Shown piece by piece: positions 6,724 to 63,645 of a DNA stretch of 64,000 bases. The notes below the pieces were generated by a model that searched no databases, was not told where the DNA came from, and worked only from the letters and a program-made list of their open reading frames with translations. This stretch comes from Spirochaetaceae bacterium (GTDB lineage: Bacteria > Spirochaetota > Spirochaetia > Treponematales > Breznakiellaceae), in NCBI GenBank assembly GCA_031281945.1, contig JAITER010000092.1, positions 1 to 64,000 of the forward strand. Reading direction: 5' to 3'. Both the position numbers and the translations under genes were made by a program. Position 1 is the stretch's first letter; the number at the start of each line of letters is the position of its first letter.

Positions 6724-7938
6724 TTAAAGCCCTGCTGTTGAAACATCCGCTTCATAATCTATGCCGTCTATATCAAAACCATGCGCCTCAAGAAAATCAT
6801 GTTTAAATCCGGCGGCGTCTGTTTTTTCAAAAATATTGTCTTCTGTTACTTCTTTTAGCCGGCTCTCAACAGTTTTTTGTATTTCCGGATTCATCTCCAG
6901 GTCGTCTATGCGTATACGGCCTTCAGCGTCTACCGGAACTTTTTCGGCGTTTACAGCCGCTTCCACTGTGTAAAGCCGTTCTTTATAAAGCCGGATAATT
7001 TGTTCTATGCAACCTTCGTGAACGCCTTTTTCTTTCATTATTTTGAATAGGCAGGAAATATAAAGCGGAATAATTGGAATAACCGCGCTTGACCGCGTAA
7101 CCACCGCTTTGTTTACGGAAACCCACGCTTTAACGACGCCGGTTTTGTTGATGGCTTTTGCGGCGCGTTCTAGATCCTCTTTTGCTTTGCCTATAGTTCC
7201 ATTTTTGTAAATAGCCCAGGAAAGTTCAGGCCCAATATAGGTGTAAGCAACAGTTCTTGCTTTTTCCGCCAATATTCCGGCGCCAGCTAACGCTTCCATC
7301 CAGAGTTCCCAGTCTTCGCCGCCCATAACTTTGATTGTGTTGGCAATTTCTTCATCATTCGCCGGTTCCGCGCTTATTGTGTTGATTTTTCCCGTTAACA
7401 TATCAAAAGTTTCGCCTGTAAATGATTTTCCCGTGGGTTTAATTACAGATTTGTATAAAATTCCCGTTTTGGGGTCTGTGCGGACGGGGGAAGCGAGCGA
7501 ATAAATAATAAGGTCGATTTTTGCGGGTATATTCGCCTGTTTCGCCACATTTTTTACAGCGTTGACGGCTTGCGTTTTTAATTCGTTGGAAAATGCGTCG
7601 CCGTTTAATGTTTGAGAAAAGAGCCCTTCCTGTTTTGCGGCGTTATCGAAAGCAAGGTTGTTGTAATATCCCGGCGTGCCCGGCTTGGTTTCGGTTCCGG
7701 ATTTTTCGAAAGAAACGCCTATTGTGTGCGCGTTATATCCAAAAGCGGCCGCTATGCGGCTGGCTAAACCATACCCGGTGGAGCATCCGATTACAAGAAC
7801 GATTTTTGGGGCGCCTTCCGGCTTAACGCCCGTAAAACATTTTTTTGTTAATGCAATTTGATTTTTTACAGCTTTTTCACAACCTTTTGGATGGCTGTTT
7901 ATGCAAATATTGCTGCGAATCATTGGTTTTATAATCAT
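6724..7938 (-). CDS. fabV: trans-2-enoyl-CoA/ACP reductase, FabV/TER type
   Basis: 404 residues, the usual length for the family. It begins with the typical M-I-I-K-P-M-I-R and an N-terminal C-I-N-S-H-P-K-G-C segment, then the NAD-binding I-G-C-S-T-G-Y-G-L-A-S near residues 50-60. The catalytic Tyr-x8-Lys region is A-Y-T-Y-I-G-P-E-L-S-W with the following G-T-I-G-K-A-K near 235-260. The enzyme reduces trans-2-enoyl thioesters with NADH, either in fatty-acid synthesis (FabV) or on CoA substrates, as in the well-known Treponema denticola TER. The coupled accB downstream favours a fatty-acid role here, but the sequence cannot separate ACP from CoA preference. Start ATG at 7938 follows aaggagt. 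Confidence 0.95.
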   Translation of the reverse strand: MIIKPMIRSNICINSHPKGCEKAVKNQIALTKKCFTGVKPEGAPKIVLVIGCSTGYGLASRIAAAFGYNAHTIGVSFEKSGTETKPGTPGYYNNLAFDNAAKQEGLFSQTLNGDAFSNELKTQAVNAVKNVAKQANIPAKIDLIIYSLASPVRTDPKTGILYKSVIKPTGKSFTGETFDMLTGKINTISAEPANDEEIANTIKVMGGEDWELWMEALAGAGILAEKARTVAYTYIGPELSWAIYKNGTIGKAKEDLERAAKAINKTGVVKAWVSVNKAVVTRSSAVIPIIPLYISCLFKIMKEKGVHEGCIEQIIRLYKERLYTVEAAVNAEKVPVDAEGRIRIDDLEMNPEIQKTVESRLKEVTEDNIFEKTDAAGFKHDFLEAHGFDIDGIDYEADVSTAGL

Positions 7939-8089
7939 GGCGACTCCTTAATTCCATCTGAAAAACTAGATTTTCCGGCTAATATAGCCCAATTAGCGTT
8001 GAAAAACAAGGTGTGCGCGGGTTTTAGGCTATGGCGGCAGTCCGGCCCGCACACGCTTTTTTAATATAGCCGCCGTTGTTGATTGAACG

Positions 8090-8126
8090 CGCAAGCGTTT
8101 TTTAAAACTTTCTAAAAACGCTTGCG
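8090..8126 (-). terminator. hairpin terminator downstream of the aminopeptidase gene
   Basis: Perfect 13-bp inverted repeat, CGCAAGCGTTTTT at 8090-8102 and AAAAACGCTTGCG at 8114-8126. It sits 16 bp beyond the stop of the minus-strand aminopeptidase gene. The A/T tract within the stem gives U-rich RNA in either direction. A second GC hairpin lies at about 8010-8056 and may insulate fabV. Confidence 0.65.
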
Positions 8127-8142
8127 ATTTGGGTTGGTTGAA

Positions 8143-9588
8143 TTAAATGTGTTTTAAAAACGCTAAATAGCCCTTATACGCCGTCCAGAGGTCTATTTTT
8201 GAAATTACTTCAAACGGGGAATGCATAGACAACACGGGGACGCCGCAATCAATAACTTCTATTCCAAGACGGGCGAACTGACTTGCTATGGTGCCGCCGC
8301 CGCCTATATCAACTTTGCCCATATTTCCATACTGCCACCGTACTTTTTCGGCGTTAAATATTTTTATTATTTTTTGAACATACTCCGCGCTAGCGTCCGA
8401 ACAGCCGTATTTTCCGCCGTGGCCGGTGTATTTTGAAATTGCTATTCCCTTTCCGCAATAAGAGCAGGTTTTTTTGTCAAAAACGGAGGCGAAAGCAGGG
8501 TCAAAAGCCGCGTTAACGTCCGAAGAAATCATAAATGAGTTATTTAAAGCGAGATGCGTTTTAAAACTGTCGTAAGAACCGGATGTTTTAGCTGTAATAC
8601 CGGTAATAAAATCCTCAAAACTACGTGATTCCGCGCTTGTATTGCCTGATGAACCCGTCTCTTCTTTGTCTGTAAACGAACAAATAACAGTTCTTTCCGG
8701 CGCGGAGCCGCGGTTTGCAAAATGCAACGCCGCTTCTAGCGAGGCAAAAGCGCAACATTTGTCATCGTGGCCGTACGCCCCTATCATACTGCGGTCGAAA
8801 CCCACATCCCTGGCTTTTTGCGCGGGAACGGCCTCTATTTCCGCGCTTGCAAAACAGGATTCGGTAACTCCGTATTTTTTATTAAGTATACGCAGTATGT
8901 TCAATTTGACTTTAGCTTCCGCTTTTTCATCGTAGAACGGCCTGGAACCAACAAGAATATCCAGGTCTTCGCCTGTTATGGCTTTGGACATCTTTTTTTC
9001 CGCTTGTTCTTGGGAGAGATGCGGAAGCAAGTCGGTAATTACAAAAACAGGATCGTTTTCATCTTCGCCTATGCAAATATTTTGTTTGTTTCCACTGGAA
9101 TCAAAAATAACGCCATGCAGGGCGAGCGGAACTGTAGTCCATTGGTATTTTTTAATCCCGCCGTAATAGTGCGTGTCGAAAAAAGCGGCGTCTGAATCTT
9201 CGTAAAGCGGGTTGGTTTTAATATCTATGCGCGGGGAATCAAGGTGCGCTCCAAGTATTGCGGCGCCTTCCGTTACTGGTTTTTTGCCGATTATGGCAAA
9301 GTTAAGCGCCTTGCCGCGTATGTTTTGATAAATTTTATCGCCAGGTAAAAGCGGCGTTTCTTTACTAAACGCGATTTTTGCGTCTATAAAGCCTAGTTTA
9401 GACAAAATTGAATCTATTTGAAGCGTAATCTCGCGTTCTGTTTTTCCAGCATTTAAAAAATCTTTATAACGTGTGGAAAACTTTTCGATATCGTCCAAGT
9501 CGGCTGGACTTGCTGTTTCCCATGCGCTTTTAATTTTAAAACCAAGTTTTTCCGTCAATTTTTGACCTTCCGTTTTTTCTTCTGACAT
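8143..9588 (-). CDS. M18-family zinc aminopeptidase
   Basis: 481 residues, close to bacterial M18 enzymes. Metal and active-site segments are visible: A-I-L-G-A-H-L-D-S-P-R (His/Asp) near 105, Y-G-H-D-D-K-C-C-A near 273, F-T-D-K-E-E-T-G-S near 308, D-V-N-A-A-F-D near 360, and G-H-G-G-K-Y-G and V-P-V-L-S-M-H-S-P-F-E near the end. M18 enzymes are cytoplasmic dodecamers that trim acidic or neutral N-terminal residues from peptides, a plausible supply of amino acids in a gut anaerobe. Start ATG 9588 is preceded by an aggatt ribosome site. Monocistronic: repeat A lies upstream and a hairpin downstream. Confidence 0.92.
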   Translation of the reverse strand: MSEEKTEGQKLTEKLGFKIKSAWETASPADLDDIEKFSTRYKDFLNAGKTEREITLQIDSILSKLGFIDAKIAFSKETPLLPGDKIYQNIRGKALNFAIIGKKPVTEGAAILGAHLDSPRIDIKTNPLYEDSDAAFFDTHYYGGIKKYQWTTVPLALHGVIFDSSGNKQNICIGEDENDPVFVITDLLPHLSQEQAEKKMSKAITGEDLDILVGSRPFYDEKAEAKVKLNILRILNKKYGVTESCFASAEIEAVPAQKARDVGFDRSMIGAYGHDDKCCAFASLEAALHFANRGSAPERTVICSFTDKEETGSSGNTSAESRSFEDFITGITAKTSGSYDSFKTHLALNNSFMISSDVNAAFDPAFASVFDKKTCSYCGKGIAISKYTGHGGKYGCSDASAEYVQKIIKIFNAEKVRWQYGNMGKVDIGGGGTIASQFARLGIEVIDCGVPVLSMHSPFEVISKIDLWTAYKGYLAFLKHI

Positions 9589-54801: not shown

Positions 54802-56931
54802 TTGAAAGACAAAATATTAATAGCTCTCGCTGGAAATCCCAACAGCGGAAAAACTACGCTGTTTAACGCTTTTACCAAAGCGCATCATAAAGTTGGAAAC
54901 TATCCTGGAGTAACTGTAGAAAAAAGAGAAGGAATTGTTAAACGCGGCGGGACGGCGTACCATTTTGTAGATTTGCCCGGCGTATACAGCCTTACCGCTT
55001 ACTCGGAAGATGAGGTTGTGGCTCGCAATTTTATATTGAACGAAAAACCGGATGTTATTATTGACGTTCTGGATTCAACCAATCTGGAGCGCAACCTTTA
55101 CCTGTTTCTGCAACTTCAGGAATTGGGCGTTCCTATTGTGGGCGCGTTGAATATGTCGGACGAAGCGGACAAAAACAAAATAAATATAGACGAAAAAAAA
55201 CTTCTGGATAAATTTGGAGCGCCCTTTGTAAAAATAATAGCGCAACATAGTAAAGGTCTGGCCGGCCTATATGACGCGATTAATCAAGTTGTCGCCGAAA
55301 AGCCGGCGGAACCCGTATTAGCCCCCAAAAATATTTATGATGTTGAAATCGAGCAAAAAATAAGCGATCTACAAAATATAATCCAGGGGAATGTTAAAAC
55401 GACCGGCTTGAATTTGCGATGGCTCGCTATAAAATTGCTGGAAAAAGACGCCGATCCTCTTGTGTTGTCGCAAGCCGGATCGGATGGTTTTATGATAGAA
55501 ACCGAATCTCAAAAAATTATAAATTGGATGGAAGACAGGTTTGGCGGCGACAGCGAAATTATAATTTCTGAACAACGTTACAAATACATAAGTGAAGCCG
55601 TTGAATACGCCGTAAGAGCTTCTTCCAAAACAAATTTTTCCATAACAAAAAAGCTGGATAATGTATTTATGAACCGGTTCCTCGCCTTGCCTCTGTTTGC
55701 CGGTATATTGTGGTGTGTGTTTCAAATAACATTTACAATAGGCGCGTATCCCCAGGAGTGGTTGGAAACCTTCTTTGGCTTTCTTACAGACGCCGCAAAT
55801 AATTCTATGGAAGACGGTCTTTTGCGAAGTTTGATTGTAGACGGCGTTATAGCGGGCGTGGGCGGAGTTTTAAGTTTTCTGCCGCTGGTTGTAATTCTGT
55901 TCCTTCTAATTTCTATTTTGGAAGATTTTGGCTATATATCCCGCGCCGCATACGCGACGGATAAACTATTGCATACCGTAGGATTGCATGGGCAGTCGGT
56001 TTTCCCGATGATGCTGGGTTTTGGCTGCTCTATTCCGGCGGTTATGGCTTCTCGCACATTAAAAAGCAAGCGCGACAGAATTATCACGGTGTTGCTTACG
56101 CCAATGATGAGTTGCGGGGCTAAATTGCCAATACATTTGATGATAGCCGCCGCTTTTTTCCCGGAAAACGCTGGAAATATGGTGATGCTCATCTATCTGT
56201 GCGGAGTGTTTCTCGCGGTTTGTTCCGCCATGCTGTTGCGTGTAACAGTCTTAAAAGGCGATCCCACGCCGTTTGTTCTGGAGTTGCCGCCCTACCGCCT
56301 GCCGACAATTAGCGGCGTTCTTTGGCACGTATTTGAAAAATCCTGGAGTTATGTAAAGAAGGCGGGAACTATTATTTTGGCTACAACAATCCTTGTTTGG
56401 CTTATTACCACTTTCCCCGCTTATGAACTTGACGGCGCTCAAAGAGAAGAATTCGTATCAACTTATCTTTCGGAAAACCCGGAAGCGAATGATGAAGAAC
56501 TTGAAGGACGTCTAAAAACCATTGAAGCAAAGTCCGGGCTAGAAAATAGTTACGCTGGGCGTATAGGTAAAGTGATTGAGCCTATTTTTAAACCGCTTGG
56601 TTTTAATTGGCAGATTTCGATTGCGGTTATTACTGGTTTTGCGGCCAAAGAAGTTGTTGTCTCTACGTTAGGCGTTTTATATAGCGTAGGTTCTGAAGAA
56701 ACTGAAGAAAGCGAAGAATTGCACGCCGTTTTTGCCGCGGAATCTGGTTTAAACAAACTGGGCGCTTTTACGTTTATGCTGTTTATGTTGCTTATTCCCC
56801 CTTGTTTTGCGGCTTTGGCGGTAATTAAAGCGGAACTCGGCTGGAAATGGCTAGGTTTTGAATTTGTGTTTCTGACTGCATTCGGCTGGTTTGTTAGCTT
56901 TCTTGTATTTCAAATTGGGAGTCTTTTATGA
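54802..56931 (+). CDS. feoB: ferrous iron transporter B
   Basis: 709 residues from a TTG start with ribosome site aaggag. The N-terminal G domain has G-N-P-N-S-G-K-T at 11-18, D-L-P-G near 58 and N-M-S-D near 119. A helical GDI-like part follows. The membrane domain begins near 290, with gate motifs G-F-G-C-S-I-P-A near 410 and A-P-M-like T-P-M-M-S-C-G-A-K near 430. It imports Fe2+ across the inner membrane, powered by GTP. Its end overlaps the small Cys-rich gene by 4 bp. Part of its 3' half (56027-56155) is duplicated at 59170. Confidence 0.96.
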   Translation: MKDKILIALAGNPNSGKTTLFNAFTKAHHKVGNYPGVTVEKREGIVKRGGTAYHFVDLPGVYSLTAYSEDEVVARNFILNEKPDVIIDVLDSTNLERNLYLFLQLQELGVPIVGALNMSDEADKNKINIDEKKLLDKFGAPFVKIIAQHSKGLAGLYDAINQVVAEKPAEPVLAPKNIYDVEIEQKISDLQNIIQGNVKTTGLNLRWLAIKLLEKDADPLVLSQAGSDGFMIETESQKIINWMEDRFGGDSEIIISEQRYKYISEAVEYAVRASSKTNFSITKKLDNVFMNRFLALPLFAGILWCVFQITFTIGAYPQEWLETFFGFLTDAANNSMEDGLLRSLIVDGVIAGVGGVLSFLPLVVILFLLISILEDFGYISRAAYATDKLLHTVGLHGQSVFPMMLGFGCSIPAVMASRTLKSKRDRIITVLLTPMMSCGAKLPIHLMIAAAFFPENAGNMVMLIYLCGVFLAVCSAMLLRVTVLKGDPTPFVLELPPYRLPTISGVLWHVFEKSWSYVKKAGTIILATTILVWLITTFPAYELDGAQREEFVSTYLSENPEANDEELEGRLKTIEAKSGLENSYAGRIGKVIEPIFKPLGFNWQISIAVITGFAAKEVVVSTLGVLYSVGSEETEESEELHAVFAAESGLNKLGAFTFMLFMLLIPPCFAALAVIKAELGWKWLGFEFVFLTAFGWFVSFLVFQIGSLL

Positions 56932-57080
56932 ACATGGAAGTTGCTGTTGTGGGGGCTATAGTTTTAGCCTCCGCTGTATTTTTGGCGGCGCGTGTTGTAA
57001 AAACGTTTGCCTCTAAAAGCCCGGGCTGTTGCGGCGGCCCCGGAAAAAAATGTCCGCATTGCGCAAAAAGTAAAATTTAA
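56928..57080 (+). CDS. FeoB-associated Cys-rich membrane protein
   Basis: 50 residues, overlapping the feoB stop (ATGA). One membrane helix (V-A-V-V-G-A-I-V-L-A-S-A-V-F-L-A-A) is followed by a basic segment and S-P-G-C-C-G-G-P-G and C-P-H-C motifs. This is the small FeoB partner seen at the end of many feo operons; its cysteines may bind iron during transfer. A second, fused remnant of it lies at 59299-59394. Confidence 0.9.
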   Translation: MNMEVAVVGAIVLASAVFLAARVVKTFASKSPGCCGGPGKKCPHCAKSKI

Positions 57081-57202
57081 GGTTGCTCAAGGCGTTTAGG
57101 TTTTGGATCGCCGCCGCCGGCAACCTCGAATCAATCCTGGACGTCGATTAAAAAAACCGCCGCCTGTCGTGAAGCCGGTGCGGACGATGGCGCGGGCGGA
57201 CT

Positions 57203-59164: not shown

Positions 59165-59435
59165 ATTCCCGCTCTATTCCGGCGGTTATGGCTTCTCGCG
59201 CATTAAAAAGCAGGCGCGGCAGAATTATCACGGTATTGCTTACGCCAATGATGAGTTGCGGGGCTAAATTGCCAATACATTTGATGATAGCCGCCGCTGT
59301 ATTTTTGACGGCGCGTGTTGTAAAAACGGGCGTCTCTAAAAGCCCAGGCTGTTGCGGCGGCCCCGGAAAAATTGCCGCATTGCGCACAAAGTAAAATTTA
59401 AGGTTGTTCCAGCCGTTTAGGCTTTGGAGCGCCTG
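59165..59435 (+). pseudogene. collapsed second copy of the feoB/Cys-rich gene tail
   Basis: 59170-59299 repeats feoB 56027-56155 with few changes; 59299-59435 repeats 56979-57115 (end of the small Cys-rich gene and its 3' flank). The intervening 823 bp are missing, with a shared CCGCT at the junction. The remnant reads as one open frame joining part of the FeoB membrane domain to the end of the Cys-rich protein, but it has no proper start and lacks most of FeoB. Between 59436 and 59583 nothing else is recognisable. Confidence 0.88.
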
Positions 59436-59583
59436 CGACGCCGGCGGTCAACGATGATTTTACCGTAAAATCGATAAAATCCGCCAATGGATGCGCTTCC
59501 ACGCAACGCCCGGTTTGTGATTTCTTACCCTTGGTATGAATAATCTTTCCGGGCTTGCGGTTTTAATGTTTTAAACCGTGATT

Positions 59584-59612
59584 TTGACAATTTTGTTGTA
59601 ACAAAGTAGAAT
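59584..59612 (+). promoter_or_regulatory. consensus-like promoter of repeat D, copy 1
   Basis: TTGACA (59584-59589), 17-bp spacer, TAGAAT (59607-59612). The spacer holds TTTGTT-GT-AACAAA, a 6-bp-arm inverted repeat that could bind a repressor. Transcription should begin near 59619, the same place as the ATG. The other copy has the same boxes and spacing at 61093-61121. Confidence 0.75.
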
Positions 59613-59618
59613 GATTTT

Positions 59619-60035
59619 ATGCTTTTGAAGCCGGCGGGTAAAAAGATAGATCGTTTTCCACGGCTCGTAAATCAAAACGGGCGGCGTGTCAAGCCCCCCC
59701 CCCCCCCCGCTCTCTCATTTCCTGAAAATATTCTGTCTGGTCGCCCCTGTCTCGCATTCAGGCGCCGTTATGCTTCATTTTTAAACCAATACGCCCTGTT
59801 CACGGGCAAAAACTCTTCATTTTTCAACAGATTCACCAACTCTGAGTTATTGCGGCGATGCAGTAAAGACATGAGGCGCCGTCCGTCTTTACGCATCGTA
59901 AAAGAATGGGCCGCTTGCATTGCGCGAAGCCGGGTAAAGAATAATAAAAAGCTTATTCGGCTTTGCGGTCGCTTTACATTGTCTTCTGATAGCGGGGCGT
60001 CTGGAGCGAAAGGAGGCGGGCGGCGAACAGAATAA
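59619..60035 (+). CDS. putative leaderless ORF with in-frame poly-C tract
   Basis: 138 codons, beginning at the expected transcription start, so no ribosome site is possible. The frame goes through 15 C at 59694-59708 (encoding Pro), then a basic, Arg-rich region: P-E-N-I-L-S-G-R, F-R-R-R-Y-A-S-F-L-N-Q, F-F-N-R-F-T-N-S-E-L-L and V-K-N-N-K-K-L-I-R-L. No family is recognised. The other copy has 14 C and is out of phase. Translation is unproven; the conserved sequence might instead be a structured RNA, or be read on the minus strand. Confidence 0.3.
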   Translation: MLLKPAGKKIDRFPRLVNQNGRRVKPPPPPALSFPENILSGRPCLAFRRRYASFLNQYALFTGKNSSFFNRFTNSELLRRCSKDMRRRPSLRIVKEWAACIARSRVKNNKKLIRLCGRFTLSSDSGASGAKGGGRRTE

Positions 60036-60077
60036 ATCTATTTGAAAGGGACGGATATTCAGTATACGGGATTCGCG

Positions 60078-60103
60078 GCGTATACAATATGGTTATGCGA
60101 CAT
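60078..60103 (+). other. attC/attI-like right half-site, repeat D copy 1
   Basis: GCGTATACA (L'-like, 60078-60086), a 5-bp spacer, then GTTATGCGAC (R'-like, 60092-60101). The core GTTATG is where integron integrases cut (after the G). The following DNA differs between the two repeat D copies exactly from here on, as expected of a cassette boundary. Confidence 0.6.
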
Positions 60104-60234
60104 AAAACCCTGAAGTTTCCGGAATTGAAAGACGGCGGAGTTCATGCCGCCGCTACGGAATACACTGATAACGGTTTTATGAATTTCAACACATAATCTT
60201 AAATACTTTGTTGTCAAAGTGGAGAAGAAAAAAA
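60101..60234 (+). repeat. cassette leader repeat E, copy 1
   Basis: About 122 bp nearly identical to 63315-63447: cataaaaccctgaagtttcc, gacggcggagttcatgccgc, gaatacactgataacggttt and cttaaatactttgttg. In both places it lies between an attachment site and a lipoprotein start. It contains CGGCGGAGTTCATGCCGCCG, which can form a hairpin. Confidence 0.88.
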
Positions 60235-60807
60235 ATGGCAAATAAAAACAGATTTTGGAAAATGTTTGCGGCGGTTCTGGTGTTCGGAATGGTTTTACTT
60301 GGTTGTCCCAATGACACGACCGGGGAAAAATATGACGTATGGTCAAACGTAACAGATTTGAACCAATTGAATGGGACATGGAAAGGTTCCTATAGTCAAA
60401 CCCAGACTATAAAAGAAATGATTGTGGCTCTAGGCGAGACATGGGAGGAGGGAATGTCTACAACGTTTGGTGATATGAAAGTAACCACCTTGACGGAAAT
60501 AACCACAACCATTAAGTCAGCCGATAAAACGCAGTCTTTTTCCTTTAAAATTACAATGACATTTTCCGGCGGGAATATCGACACGGCATGGACAATGATA
60601 AAAGAAGGTTTCAACTCTGAAAGCTATACAATTGATGACAGCAAGCATTCCATAACCACGCAATACGGCCATGATTTACCAATTAAAGACGAGGATATAG
60701 CGAAAATGCTGAAAGGTTTTCAGATAAATCAAAACGGGACAAAAATGAAAATCCCCGCAGACGATATGAGTGAAGGTTCACCGGAAGTGGTGATGATCAA
60801 ACAATAG
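60235..60807 (+). CDS. cassette-borne lipoprotein
   Basis: 190 residues from ATG 60235 (M-A-N-K-N-R-F), with tggagaag upstream. Lipobox V-L-L-G-C (Cys about 22). The mature part has L-N-G-T-W-K-G-S-Y, a phrase often seen in lipocalin-like or beta-barrel small domains of treponemal lipoproteins, and a Thr/Lys-rich beta pattern to the end. Family unknown. It is the first gene after the repeat D half-site and ends 49 bp before an R''-L'' half-site, as a gene cassette would. Confidence 0.75.
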   Translation: MANKNRFWKMFAAVLVFGMVLLGCPNDTTGEKYDVWSNVTDLNQLNGTWKGSYSQTQTIKEMIVALGETWEEGMSTTFGDMKVTTLTEITTTIKSADKTQSFSFKITMTFSGGNIDTAWTMIKEGFNSESYTIDDSKHSITTQYGHDLPIKDEDIAKMLKGFQINQNGTKMKIPADDMSEGSPEVVMIKQ

Positions 60808-60856
60808 GGAAAGCCGCCGCGCCGTCCGCAGTGTGGCGCTTCGTAGCAGATTTTAC

Positions 60857-60880
60857 GGCGCATAACAGGACTGTTTACGC
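60857..60880 (+). other. attC-like left half-site without its right half
   Basis: GGCGCATAAC (R'', 60857-60866), a 4-bp spacer, CTGTTTACG (L'', 60871-60879). The expected L'-R' partner within about 130 bp is missing. L'' does match the GCGTATACA of repeat D copy 2 (one mismatch), 700 bp away at 61586. Between 60880 and 61090 the DNA is GC-rich, with short inverted repeats (GCGGCGC ... GCGCCGC) and no gene. Confidence 0.6.
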
Positions 60881-61090
60881 TACGCCTACAGTAGCGGGCT
60901 TGGCCTCCATTCGGCTAGGTCAGTCGCTACGCTCCTTCCCACGCCTCATTCCGGCACATTTGGGCGGCGCAAAACCCTGCGGCTTTCTTTATAGCGCCGC
61001 CCAAACGCCGCATACCGCTGAAACGCCGTCCGTGCAAGCATGTTTTGTAATCCTTGCGGTTGTCATTACACCCCGCAACAAATCGCAAGC

Positions 61091-61611
61091 ATTTGACATT
61101 TTTGTTGTAACAAAGTAGAATGATTTTATGCTTTTGAAACTGGCGGTTAAAAAGATAAAGCTTTCACAGTTCGTAAATCAAAGCGGGTTGTGTGTCAAGC
61201 CCCCCCCCCCCCCGGCCAGCCTCATTTCCTGAAAACATTCTGTCCGGTCGCCTCTGTTTCCCATTCAGGCGCCGTTATGCTTCATTTTTAAACCAATACG
61301 CCCTGTTCGCGGGCAAAGACTTTTCATTTTTCAACAGATTCACCAACTCTGAGTTATTGCGGTGTTGCGGTAAAAACGGGAGGCGCCGTCCGTTTTTACG
61401 CATCATAAAGGAATGCGCCGCTTGCGTAGCACGAAGCCAGGTAAAGAATAATAAAAAACTCATTCGGCTTTGCGGTTGCTTTACATTGTCTTCTGATAGC
61501 GGAGCGTCTGGAGCGAAATGAGGCGGGTGGAGAACAGAATAAATCTATTTGAAAGGGACGGATATTTTAGTGTACGGGATTCGCGGCGTATACAATATAG
61601 TTATGCGACAT
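61091..61611 (+). repeat. ~520-bp repeat D, copy 2
   Basis: Mirror of copy 1: TTGACA 61093-61098, 17-bp spacer with the same inverted repeat, TAGAAT 61116-61121, ATG 61128, poly-C at 61200-61213 (14 C), L'-like GCGTATACA 61586-61594 and R'-like GTTATGCGACAT 61600-61611. The DNA after it goes into the rmuC-like cassette instead of the lipoprotein leader. Confidence 0.9.
61128..61521 (+). pseudogene. out-of-phase copy of the poly-C ORF
   Basis: From ATG 61128 the frame is the same as in copy 1 up to the tract, but 14 C plus a 2-bp change after it put the conserved downstream part one base out, and a TGA comes within about 20 bases. With 13 or 16 C the conserved frame (P-E-N-I-L-S-G-R ... S-D-S-G-A-S-G-A-K) would be open. 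So it is either a phase-off state or a broken copy. Confidence 0.35.
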
Positions 61612-61664
61612 TTTTTCTGAAAATTTTTGAAGTAGTTGACTAATTTGTATGTTTTGGAGGATGT

Positions 61665-63164
61665 ATGGACTTAAATATTGTTATTGAATTGGCAATTTTG
61701 GCAGTGGTAATTATACAATTTATTGTAATAATTATACTTCTTGCAAAGAATAGGCAAGGATTACAGAAGTTGATAGAATACGATGACCAACTTGATAAAA
61801 ACAAATCAGGCATTGAATCAAGTCTCCGTGACGAATTCGGTAGAAACCGAGGCGAACTATCACAATCACTCAAAACTGTTTCTGAACAATTATCAACCAC
61901 AATAACAAACTTTACCGGACTAGTTGATAATAAAATTCAATCTATATTGAATTCATTGACAACATCGTCAAAATCGAACAGAGATGAACTAAATAAAACA
62001 ATCATCACCTTTGAAGAAAAAGTGACCAGAATTTTGAATACAGAATTAAAATCTGTTCAGGACGGAGTAAACCATTCAACGAAAGAAAGTCGTGAAGAAC
62101 TAGCTGCTTCATTGAAGCAATTTGAGGAGAAGTCATCAGCAAAGATAGAAGCTTTAACAAAAGACACCAGGGAAGGGCTTGAAAAAAATCGCGAAACTGT
62201 TGAAAGAAAGCTTGCGGAAATTCAGACAGGAAATGAGGCAAAGTTGGATAAAATGCGGGAGACGGTTGATGAAAAGTTACAAAAAACCCTCGAAGCACGG
62301 CTAAGCGCTTCATTCAAACAAGTAAGCGACGATCTTGAAAAAGTGCAAAAAGGGCTTGGAGCAATGCAAAATCTCGCATCAGACGTTGGTGATTTGAAAA
62401 AGGTAATGTCTAATGTTAAAACGAAGGGGGTTTTAGGCGAATATCAACTTGAAGCAATTCTTGAGCAAATGCTTCATCCAAGCCAATATGAGAAAAATGT
62501 AAAAACAAAAGTTGGTAGTGATAAACATGTGGAATTCGCCATTAAAATTCCGAGTAAGGAAGATTCAGATAAAAATGTCTGGCTGCCTATTGATGCAAAA
62601 CTACCTACCAGCAACTATGAAATTCTCATGGAAGCTTACAATAATGGAGACAAAGAAGCCGTTGAAAATGCGCGAAAGGCTTTTTCAAAAACTGTTAAAA
62701 ATTTTGCAAAGGAAATCAAGGAAAAATATATTGACTCACCGAATACCACCGATTTTGCGATAATGTTTTTGCCATTTGAAGGCGCGTATGCGGAGGTTGT
62801 ACGTGATCCTGAGCTTTTTGAAGGAATACAGAGAGAACATAAGATTATTGTTACTGGTCCATCTACGATAGCAGCATTTTTAAATGCGCTACAGGTAGGT
62901 TTTAGAAGCTTGGCTGTAGAAAAGGGAACAAGTGTTATTTTGAACACCTTAAGCGCTGTAAAGAAAGAATTTGGAAACTTTGAAAATATCCTGGTCAAGG
63001 TAAAAGATCAGATTGATAAGGCAAGCGCTACATTGGATGAAACCGTTGGTAAACGAACAAAAGCAATAAACAAGGCATTGAAAAAGGTTGAGACCTTATC
63101 TGATGATACTGTGGGGCAAAAATTATTAGTAGATGTTTCTTCTGATTTAGAAGAAACAGAATAA
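61665..63164 (+). CDS. rmuC: RmuC-family protein carried in a cassette-like segment
   Basis: 499 residues. An N-terminal membrane helix (I-A-I-L-A-V-V-I-I-Q-F near 8-28), then a long coiled coil to about 245, then the RmuC core: K-G-V-L-G-E-Y-Q-L-E near 255, D-A-K-L-P near 305 and F-L-P-F-E-G-A-Y-A near 360, with G-P-S-T-I-A-A-F-L-N near 398. RmuC proteins limit recombination between inverted repeats and have a nuclease-like fold. The gene has a strong tggagg ribosome site, is AT-richer than its neighbours and lies between the half-site at 61600 and the full attC at 63189. Confidence 0.92.
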   Translation: MDLNIVIELAILAVVIIQFIVIIILLAKNRQGLQKLIEYDDQLDKNKSGIESSLRDEFGRNRGELSQSLKTVSEQLSTTITNFTGLVDNKIQSILNSLTTSSKSNRDELNKTIITFEEKVTRILNTELKSVQDGVNHSTKESREELAASLKQFEEKSSAKIEALTKDTREGLEKNRETVERKLAEIQTGNEAKLDKMRETVDEKLQKTLEARLSASFKQVSDDLEKVQKGLGAMQNLASDVGDLKKVMSNVKTKGVLGEYQLEAILEQMLHPSQYEKNVKTKVGSDKHVEFAIKIPSKEDSDKNVWLPIDAKLPTSNYEILMEAYNNGDKEAVENARKAFSKTVKNFAKEIKEKYIDSPNTTDFAIMFLPFEGAYAEVVRDPELFEGIQREHKIIVTGPSTIAAFLNALQVGFRSLAVEKGTSVILNTLSAVKKEFGNFENILVKVKDQIDKASATLDETVGKRTKAINKALKKVETLSDDTVGQKLLVDVSSDLEETE

Positions 63165-63188
63165 GAAAATTACTGTAGCAGAAAAAAC

Positions 63189-63315
63189 GTCGCATAACAG
63201 GTCTGTTAACGCTTCGGGCCTAAAGGCCCTCGGGGTTCCGGCTGACTAGGTCATTTCGCTTCACTTCATTTCCAGGGCCGCCAAACCGTCGTAAACAGCC
63301 GGAACGTTATGTGCC
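63189..63315 (+). other. complete attC-like recombination site
   Basis: R'' GTCGCATAAC (63189-63198), L'' CTGTTAACG (63203-63211), a 78-bp central region with GGGCC-TAAA-GGCCC pairing, L' CGTAAACAG (63290-63298), R' GTTATGTGCC (63306-63315). R'' and R' pair through GCATAAC/GTTATG; L'' and L' pair with one mismatch. This is the two-simple-site layout of integron attC sites, about 127 bp long. It lies 25 bp after the rmuC-like stop. Confidence 0.75.
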
Positions 63316-63447
63316 ATAAAACCCTGAAGTTTCCGGAATTGAAAGACGGCGGAGTTCATGCCGCCGCTACGGAATACACTGATAACGGTTTTATGAATTT
63401 CAACACATAATCTTAAATACTTTGTTGCCAAAGTAAAGGAGAAAATA
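63315..63447 (+). repeat. cassette leader repeat E, copy 2
   Basis: Second copy of the leader at 60101, starting directly at the attachment-site core and ending at the lipoprotein start. It differs by only a few bases, mostly beside the ribosome site (aaaggag here). Confidence 0.88.
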
Positions 63448-63645
63448 ATGGCAAATAAAAAATTTGGGCCGGTAATGCTGGCGATAATGTTTCTGGCATT
63501 TGGTTTGATGCTGACTGGTTGTGATGATGGCGGCGACAGCGGCGGTGGAAATGGAGACGGTGTTGCAGCGGCGTTAACAGTAAATAATTGCCCTTCAAGC
63601 GCCACATATGACATAAATAAAGGAGGTTTTTATGGACAATATTAA
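63448..63645 (+). CDS. truncated lipoprotein
   Basis: 65 residues only. The signal peptide and lipobox L-T-G-C (Cys25) are good, and a Gly/Asp linker follows (C-D-D-G-G-D-S-G-G-G). The mature domain stops after about 20 residues with G-G-F-Y-G-Q-Y, inside the ribosome site and start of the following gene. It looks like the front end of a treponemal lipoprotein cut by the arrival of the downstream NTPase gene. Base composition changes sharply at about 63605. Confidence 0.6.
   Translation: MANKKFGPVMLAIMFLAFGLMLTGCDDGGDSGGGNGDGVAAALTVNNCPSSATYDINKGGFYGQY

Follow-up and report, generated by a model that had tools for sequence, protein, structure and literature searches.

The window analysed here, a stretch of 64,000 nucleotides from a Spirochaetaceae bacterium that forms part of contig C77 of a 2.49-Mb draft genome (G000), contains two copies of a unit of about 520 bp that are best interpreted as promoter and leader regions of lipoprotein genes. 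The two copies, at 59582-60103 and 61091-61611, align end to end with 89% identity and are the only two in the assembly. As a preliminary description of the region had claimed, both start with TTGACA-N17-TAGAAT, both end with GTTATGCGACAT, and the sequences that follow differ, copy 1 being followed by AAAACCC and a lipoprotein gene and copy 2 by TTTTTTC and rmuC. We consider it likely that each unit represents a promoter together with the 5' leader of a lipoprotein gene, and that one arm of a leader hairpin (P1) also serves as a core site for integron cassettes. The anatomy of the units, the leader family to which they belong, the in-register insertion of a cassette and its recurrence in other genera can all be read from the DNA itself.

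The preliminary description had gone further and regarded each unit as a portable platform that places a promoter ahead of an attachment site without intI. In functional terms this was apt, and there is indeed a promoter ahead of a site with real cassette capture, no detected integron integrase and an arrangement that recurs in other genera. The unit is, however, no free-standing platform: its 3' end together with GTTATGCG makes up the leader of lipoprotein genes, mostly with no attC nearby, and GTTATGCG is an arm of a covarying RNA hairpin. Copy 1 is followed by a lipoprotein gene of the very kind to which the leader belongs.

The difference between the downstream sequences of the two copies is due to the insertion of a cassette in one of them. 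This integron cassette (61601..63306; the genes, sites, promoters, tracts and hairpins of the two units and their neighbours are all on the + strand) starts with TTATGCGAC, which is complementary to its own R'' box GTCGCATAA, as expected for a cassette once circular. It carries an rmuC gene encoding 499 amino acids (aa) (61665..63164; PF02646, E = 1.8e-71) and, as integron gene cassettes do, a foldable attC site (63192..63312), with R'' GCATAAC at 63192-63198 and R' GTTATGT at 63306-63312. At the end of copy 2, GTTATGCG occupies 61600..61607, and the crossover point lies between G at 61600 and TT at 61601. The leader of the second lipoprotein gene (lipoprotein 2) starts directly at the attC end, at 63306, and its 157 nt are 92-95% identical to 60092-60248. 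When the flanks 61600 and 63307 are joined, the product aligns in register with copy 1 and lipoprotein 1; copy 2 is thus a unit-plus-leader split at G|TT by a single integron cassette. The left end of copy 2 does not correspond to a cassette boundary, and the preliminary description has to be corrected in this respect. Besides the complete attC in the window, a longer one is found at C77:65686-65882 and a degenerate one at 60860. Starts resembling TTATGCGMCATTTTTTCTGAAAATTT are common to cassettes of several genera, as seen at L026, L029, L034, L037 and 61601.

Upstream of many lipoprotein genes of the spirochaete family, the leader follows the consensus GTTATGYG ... CRCATAAC ... ACTTTG-TTGC-CAAAGT-AAAGGAG, in which GTTATGCG is the 5' arm of the conserved hairpin P1. 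For lipoprotein 1, P1 spans 60092..60197 (arms 60092-60099 and 60190-60197; match to covariance model R1 at 60089-60227) and is supported by covariation; the alignment and the sequence place a small hairpin, ACTTTG-TTGT-CAAAGT (60205..60220), ahead of the Shine-Dalgarno sequence. For lipoprotein 2, whose leader was one of the 15 sequences that built the covariance model, P1 spans 63306..63411 (arms 63306-63313 and 63404-63411; model match 63303-63441, E = 9.5e-16). Both hairpins were predicted unaided by RNAalifold from an ordinary MAFFT alignment of these 15 sequences, in which both the proportion of paired cells and the covariation score were above those of all 500 shuffles (score 0.166 versus 0.121, 0/500). 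Searches with the covariance model revealed 86 matches, including the 15 model-building sequences, which came from 45 of the 200 genomes and 18 of the 57 genera of the family, with up to nine per genome; outside the family, none was found with this model in a 394-genome sample of the order. Among 88 aligned matches (85 distinct), changes on both sides occurred at all 22 pairs, 95.1% of cells were paired compared with 28-56% when partners were slid, and the 85 distinct leaders gave a covariation score of 0.283 versus 0.129 (0/500 shuffles), although counts on this alignment lean towards the structure because the alignment was fitted to it. The leader has the conserved, covariation-supported structure by which cis-regulatory leader RNAs are recognised, and it may act as a structured cis-regulatory element. 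In Rfam, no family was matched at the gathering score, and a relaxed search returned two implausible weak matches.

The last 40 bases of the unit contain a second inverted repeat, P0, which reads GTATACG...CGTATAC in copy 1 (60062..60085) and GTGTACG...CGTATAC in copy 2 (61570..61593). Counterparts occur upstream of many leaders, with modest statistical support (the best stem averages 6.1, against 4.8 in shuffles). The sequence GGATATTCAGTATACGGGATTCG, which seemed to be coding for a conserved peptide when two genera were compared, is this inverted repeat, and its form changes elsewhere. In G063, G067, G090 and G013, P1 and a lipoprotein gene are accompanied by a sequence of the P0 type or one related to it, and no attC was seen after the leader gene in G063, G067, contig C59 of G090 and G013, where the loci were read far enough downstream. 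The existence of such blocks with no attC indicates that the arm GTTATGCG belongs to the leader. P1 itself is not an attC, as its arms are in the opposite order to those of attC sites (GTT...AAC outside). The lipoprotein behind one G090 leader (L040) has a MACPF domain (PF01823).

Inspection of the 5' flanks revealed an attC-type end at the leader arm for 10 of the 85 leaders, distributed over nine genomes and eight genera. A complete attC, from R'' to R', was read for five of them (C77, C92, G140, G003 and G198), the others being represented by a 3' half only or by a contig end. In G140 (genus g52), a promoter resembling TTGACA-N17-TATAAT is followed by a C15 tract, a mini-ORF ATGACGTAA and a P0-like repeat, and then by a cassette with the junction G|TTAGGCGAC, R'' GTCGCCTAAC and a full attC, after which come the leader and its gene. 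Similarly, P0 in the G003 locus (g4) is followed by a cassette (junction G|TTATACGAAA, R'' TTTCGTATAAC, full attC) and then by a leader whose arm starts with CTT. Two attC-type ends lie ahead of the leader in G198 (g44), and another attC-leader junction was found on contig C92 of G000. Integron cassettes have landed repeatedly at the 5' arm of P1, in several genera.

At their 5' ends, the units carry promoter-like boxes separated by 17 nt in both copies: TTGACA at 59584-59589 and TAGAAT at 59607-59612 in copy 1 (putative promoter 59584..59612), and 61093-61098 and 61116-61121, respectively, in copy 2 (61093..61121). The promoter block is also present in G003, G010, G058 and G131, where heptamer repeats often replace the poly-C tract that follows the boxes in both units. 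This tract is 15 nt long in copy 1 (59694..59708) and 14 nt in copy 2 (61200..61213), a difference of one C between the two paralogues, and such long simple-sequence tracts near a promoter are characteristic of contingency loci. Tracts of at least 9 nt are about tenfold enriched upstream of leaders, with 21 in 67.8 kb versus 2 in 62.5 kb downstream of leaders and 9 in 300.6 kb of other loci; the upstream tracts lie mostly on the sense strand (21:2), and promoter-like pairs precede 7 of 15 tracts when 0.86 were expected from shuffles. Tract slippage probably switches or tunes expression, amounting to a putative phase variation; one possible mechanism is that tract length determines whether the long leader is covered by ribosomes, and with it whether transcription reaches the lipoprotein gene.

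The preliminary description had counted an open reading frame (ORF) through the poly-C tract as part of the unit. The frame (59619..60035, 138 aa) is uninterrupted in copy 1, whereas the ATG frame of copy 2 stops soon after the tract. With 7 synonymous and 16 non-synonymous codon changes between the copies and no match in a Pfam search, there is no sign of selection on a protein, and the ORF was discarded as a protein gene; it is probably not a constrained protein.

Several other observations concern these tracts and the sequences around them. On contig C77 (86 kb), the only contig for which the count is exact, there are six poly-C tracts of 14-16 nt (31966, 59694, 61200, 73015, 78719 and 85351) and none of 9-13 nt; the first three lie in the window. 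Further tracts of this kind occur elsewhere in G000, some within genes, mostly with G as the next base. In a third G000 locus, L014 on contig C64 (~9370-9502), ATGCTTTTGA ... TGTCAAG precedes a C14 tract, an arrangement similar to that in the unit's 5' part. Directly upstream of copy 1, 59171-59440 contains fragments 85-95% identical to 56027-57119, a feoB-like gene region. A Shine-Dalgarno sequence with the mini-ORF ATGACRTAR (Met-Thr-stop) was found in 14 of the 85 regions upstream of leaders (e.g., L172, L158, L268 and L282) and in none of the downstream controls. A gene family whose products end in ...GPVASAVIP* lies behind repeat-bearing promoters or ahead of a leader (L043, L046, L138 and L168), the L138 copy appearing to be frameshifted.

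In the window, lipoprotein 1 (60235..60807) is a 190-aa product with a signal peptide and a ...VLLGC lipobox. The R''-type box GCATAAC at 60860..60866 opens the degenerate attC behind this gene and is followed by no proper R'. Lipoprotein 2 (63448..63645) is short or truncated, with 65 aa, and overlaps at its end with the beginning of a GTPase-like ORF. A GTPase-like gene is broken by two copies of an element of ~110-130 bp with complementary ends, resembling a miniature inverted-repeat transposable element, and a third copy lies nearby in inverted orientation (L015:6340-6450, 7455-7577 and 8029-8168, that is, C77 ~64340-66170); similar sequences occur in L142, L144 and L152.

Taken together, the sequences show an order in which a putative sigma-70-type promoter is followed by a long poly-C tract, a weakly constrained stretch, P0 and P1, the small hairpin and a Shine-Dalgarno sequence. 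P1 pairs as GUUAUGYG/CRCAUAAC, and its 5' arm would double as a core recombination site, G|TT, so that cassettes recombining there would land 3' of the promoter and 5' of the lipoprotein gene and might be expressed from that promoter. The slot is occupied by the rmuC cassette in copy 2 and is empty in copy 1. An integrase, presumably IntI, would be supplied in trans or would have been lost, and the landing site may have a selective value of its own. The two leaders share 102 identical nt to the right of G|TT, whereas to its left the units differ by ~11%; the two sides thus have separate histories, through site-specific exchange or gene conversion. In addition, the lipoprotein 1 arm GTTATGCG mispairs at one position with its partner CACATAAT, where the lipoprotein 2 arm GTTATGTG pairs, and the odd bases of the lipoprotein 1 arm are those with which the rmuC cassette starts. 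It is tempting to speculate that a cassette of this kind was once present in copy 1 and was removed by a recombination event within the first 12 nt.

Several points weigh against this proposal. One leader alignment (A2) was made with the covariance model and favours the structure of that model. A unit-like or P0 side and a leader side both flank a cassette at three loci only (G000, G140 and G003). The contrast between ~11% difference and 102 identical nucleotides on the two sides of G|TT does not fit one simple tandem duplication, and the degenerate attC behind lipoprotein 1 means that the lipoproteins of G000 could themselves be cassettes. Finally, no integron integrase above the TIGR02249 cut-off was found in G000 or in any of the 45 leader-bearing genomes, many of which are incomplete metagenome-assembled genomes, making this absence provisional. 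IntI above the cut-off was found in five other genomes of the family (G022, G038, G070, G028 and G098; L050-L054), none of which (0/5) has a leader match. Contig C77 has no intI above the cut-off, and hence no attI next to one, the landing site being the leader arm. A tyrosine recombinase on contig C64 was rejected as IntI; it falls below the cut-off and leaves model positions 176-233 unmatched, and so looks Xer-like. Comparison of the unit end with the attI sites of G022, G028, G070 and G098 revealed no convincing similarity.

A possible but less favoured explanation is that cassettes landed by accident, GTTATGCG resembling a core site and leader hairpins acting as secondary sites with no benefit or selected role. 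Off-target activity of integron integrases is described (PMC10127599), only 10 of the 85 leaders have an attC-type end, and the leader exists independently of integrons. Against mere accident, the same arm is used in eight genera, always with the cassette oriented behind the promoter, and several cassette segments have a leader at their end. The reading of the preliminary description, a remnant of a classical integron in which the unit would be Pc plus attI, intI would have been lost and the lipoproteins would be the first captured cassettes, seems unlikely to us. It would account for the promoter, the simple-site-like sequence CGTATACA-ATATG-GTTATGCG, the cassettes directly downstream and the degenerate attC after lipoprotein 1, but unit end and leader form one block at many dispersed genes with no attC, a genome can hold up to nine leaders, the partner of GTTATGCG lies inside the leader, and the family genomes with a true IntI have no leader.

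It is equally improbable that the leader-lipoprotein segments are ordinary cassettes with a TTATG start and an attC end, the unit being whatever lay upstream. The identity of the leaders right of G|TT would fit this reading, as would the attC-type sequences after lipoprotein 1, after the C92 lipoprotein and after the segment following lipoprotein 2; most of the leader genes examined, however, have no attC downstream, and P0 and P1 form a common upstream block in several genera. Promoter-bearing cassettes with no ORF are known in oral Treponema (PMC6557892), and the unit might be one of these; yet no G|TT boundary marks its left ends, and it has neither an R''-L'' pair nor an attC of its own, so that this explanation has next to no probability left and, at the level of sequence, is refuted. 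The preliminary description had named such a pair, or a transposase, as what would overturn its proposal, and neither was found. The unit was likewise rejected as a fragment of an insertion element: it has two genome copies only, is absent from plasmid records, contains an ORF with no Pfam match and shows no transposase (no further transposase-library search was made). The reading of each unit as a promoter and lipoprotein leader with a cassette core site could be extended to a dispersed integrase-less integron, in which the leader RNA would act as a chromosomal attI behind a slippage-prone promoter region, several selected cassette slots would exist per genome and the integrase would act in trans; we put this forward only tentatively and regard it as doubtful.

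Judging by isolate codes and by a remark in the preliminary description, this spirochaete family probably lives in termite guts. No integrons were found in the termite-gut treponemes sequenced by 2013 (PMC3607928), and the integron cassettes documented here belong to a family in which the termite-gut representatives had been described as integron-free. The arrangement suggests a route by which cassettes that land in the leaders of host lipoprotein genes may be expressed with no need of an integron platform, and it brings to light a widespread, strongly covarying leader RNA, missing from Rfam and linked to hypermutable tracts. In searches of the open-access literature on termite Treponema integrons, spirochaete clusters of attC sites lacking integrases (CALINs) and structured RNAs, an element of this form was described in none of the titles or abstracts shown.

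In comparison with known systems, the units share with the integron platform (Pc, attI and intI) a promoter before a G|TT site, with attC-bearing cassettes in the orientation of expression; they differ in that intI was not found, the site is a hairpin arm in the leader RNA of lipoprotein genes, a genome contains several such leaders, and the slot is followed by a gene that has a leader itself. The tpr genes of Treponema pallidum have phase-variable promoters with poly-G tracts. The likeness is a long G/C homopolymer near the promoter of envelope-protein genes, whereas here the sense strand carries C, the tract lies ~80 nt downstream of the -10 box, and relatives have heptamer repeats in its place. 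The chromosomal integrons of oral and animal Treponema (PMC3607928) likewise have attC-bearing cassettes in a spirochaete, but the cassettes described here have no detected integrase. The ORF-less promoter cassettes of oral Treponema (PMC6557892) also place a promoter with no proven ORF ahead of cassettes; they carry an attC of their own, which the unit does not. CALINs (PMC9024848), which IntegronFinder 2 calls from two attC sites upward, resemble these loci in having attC-bearing cassettes and no nearby integrase, and differ from them in that the cassette is here often single, sits at recurrent sites and is linked to a defined leader that follows a promoter.
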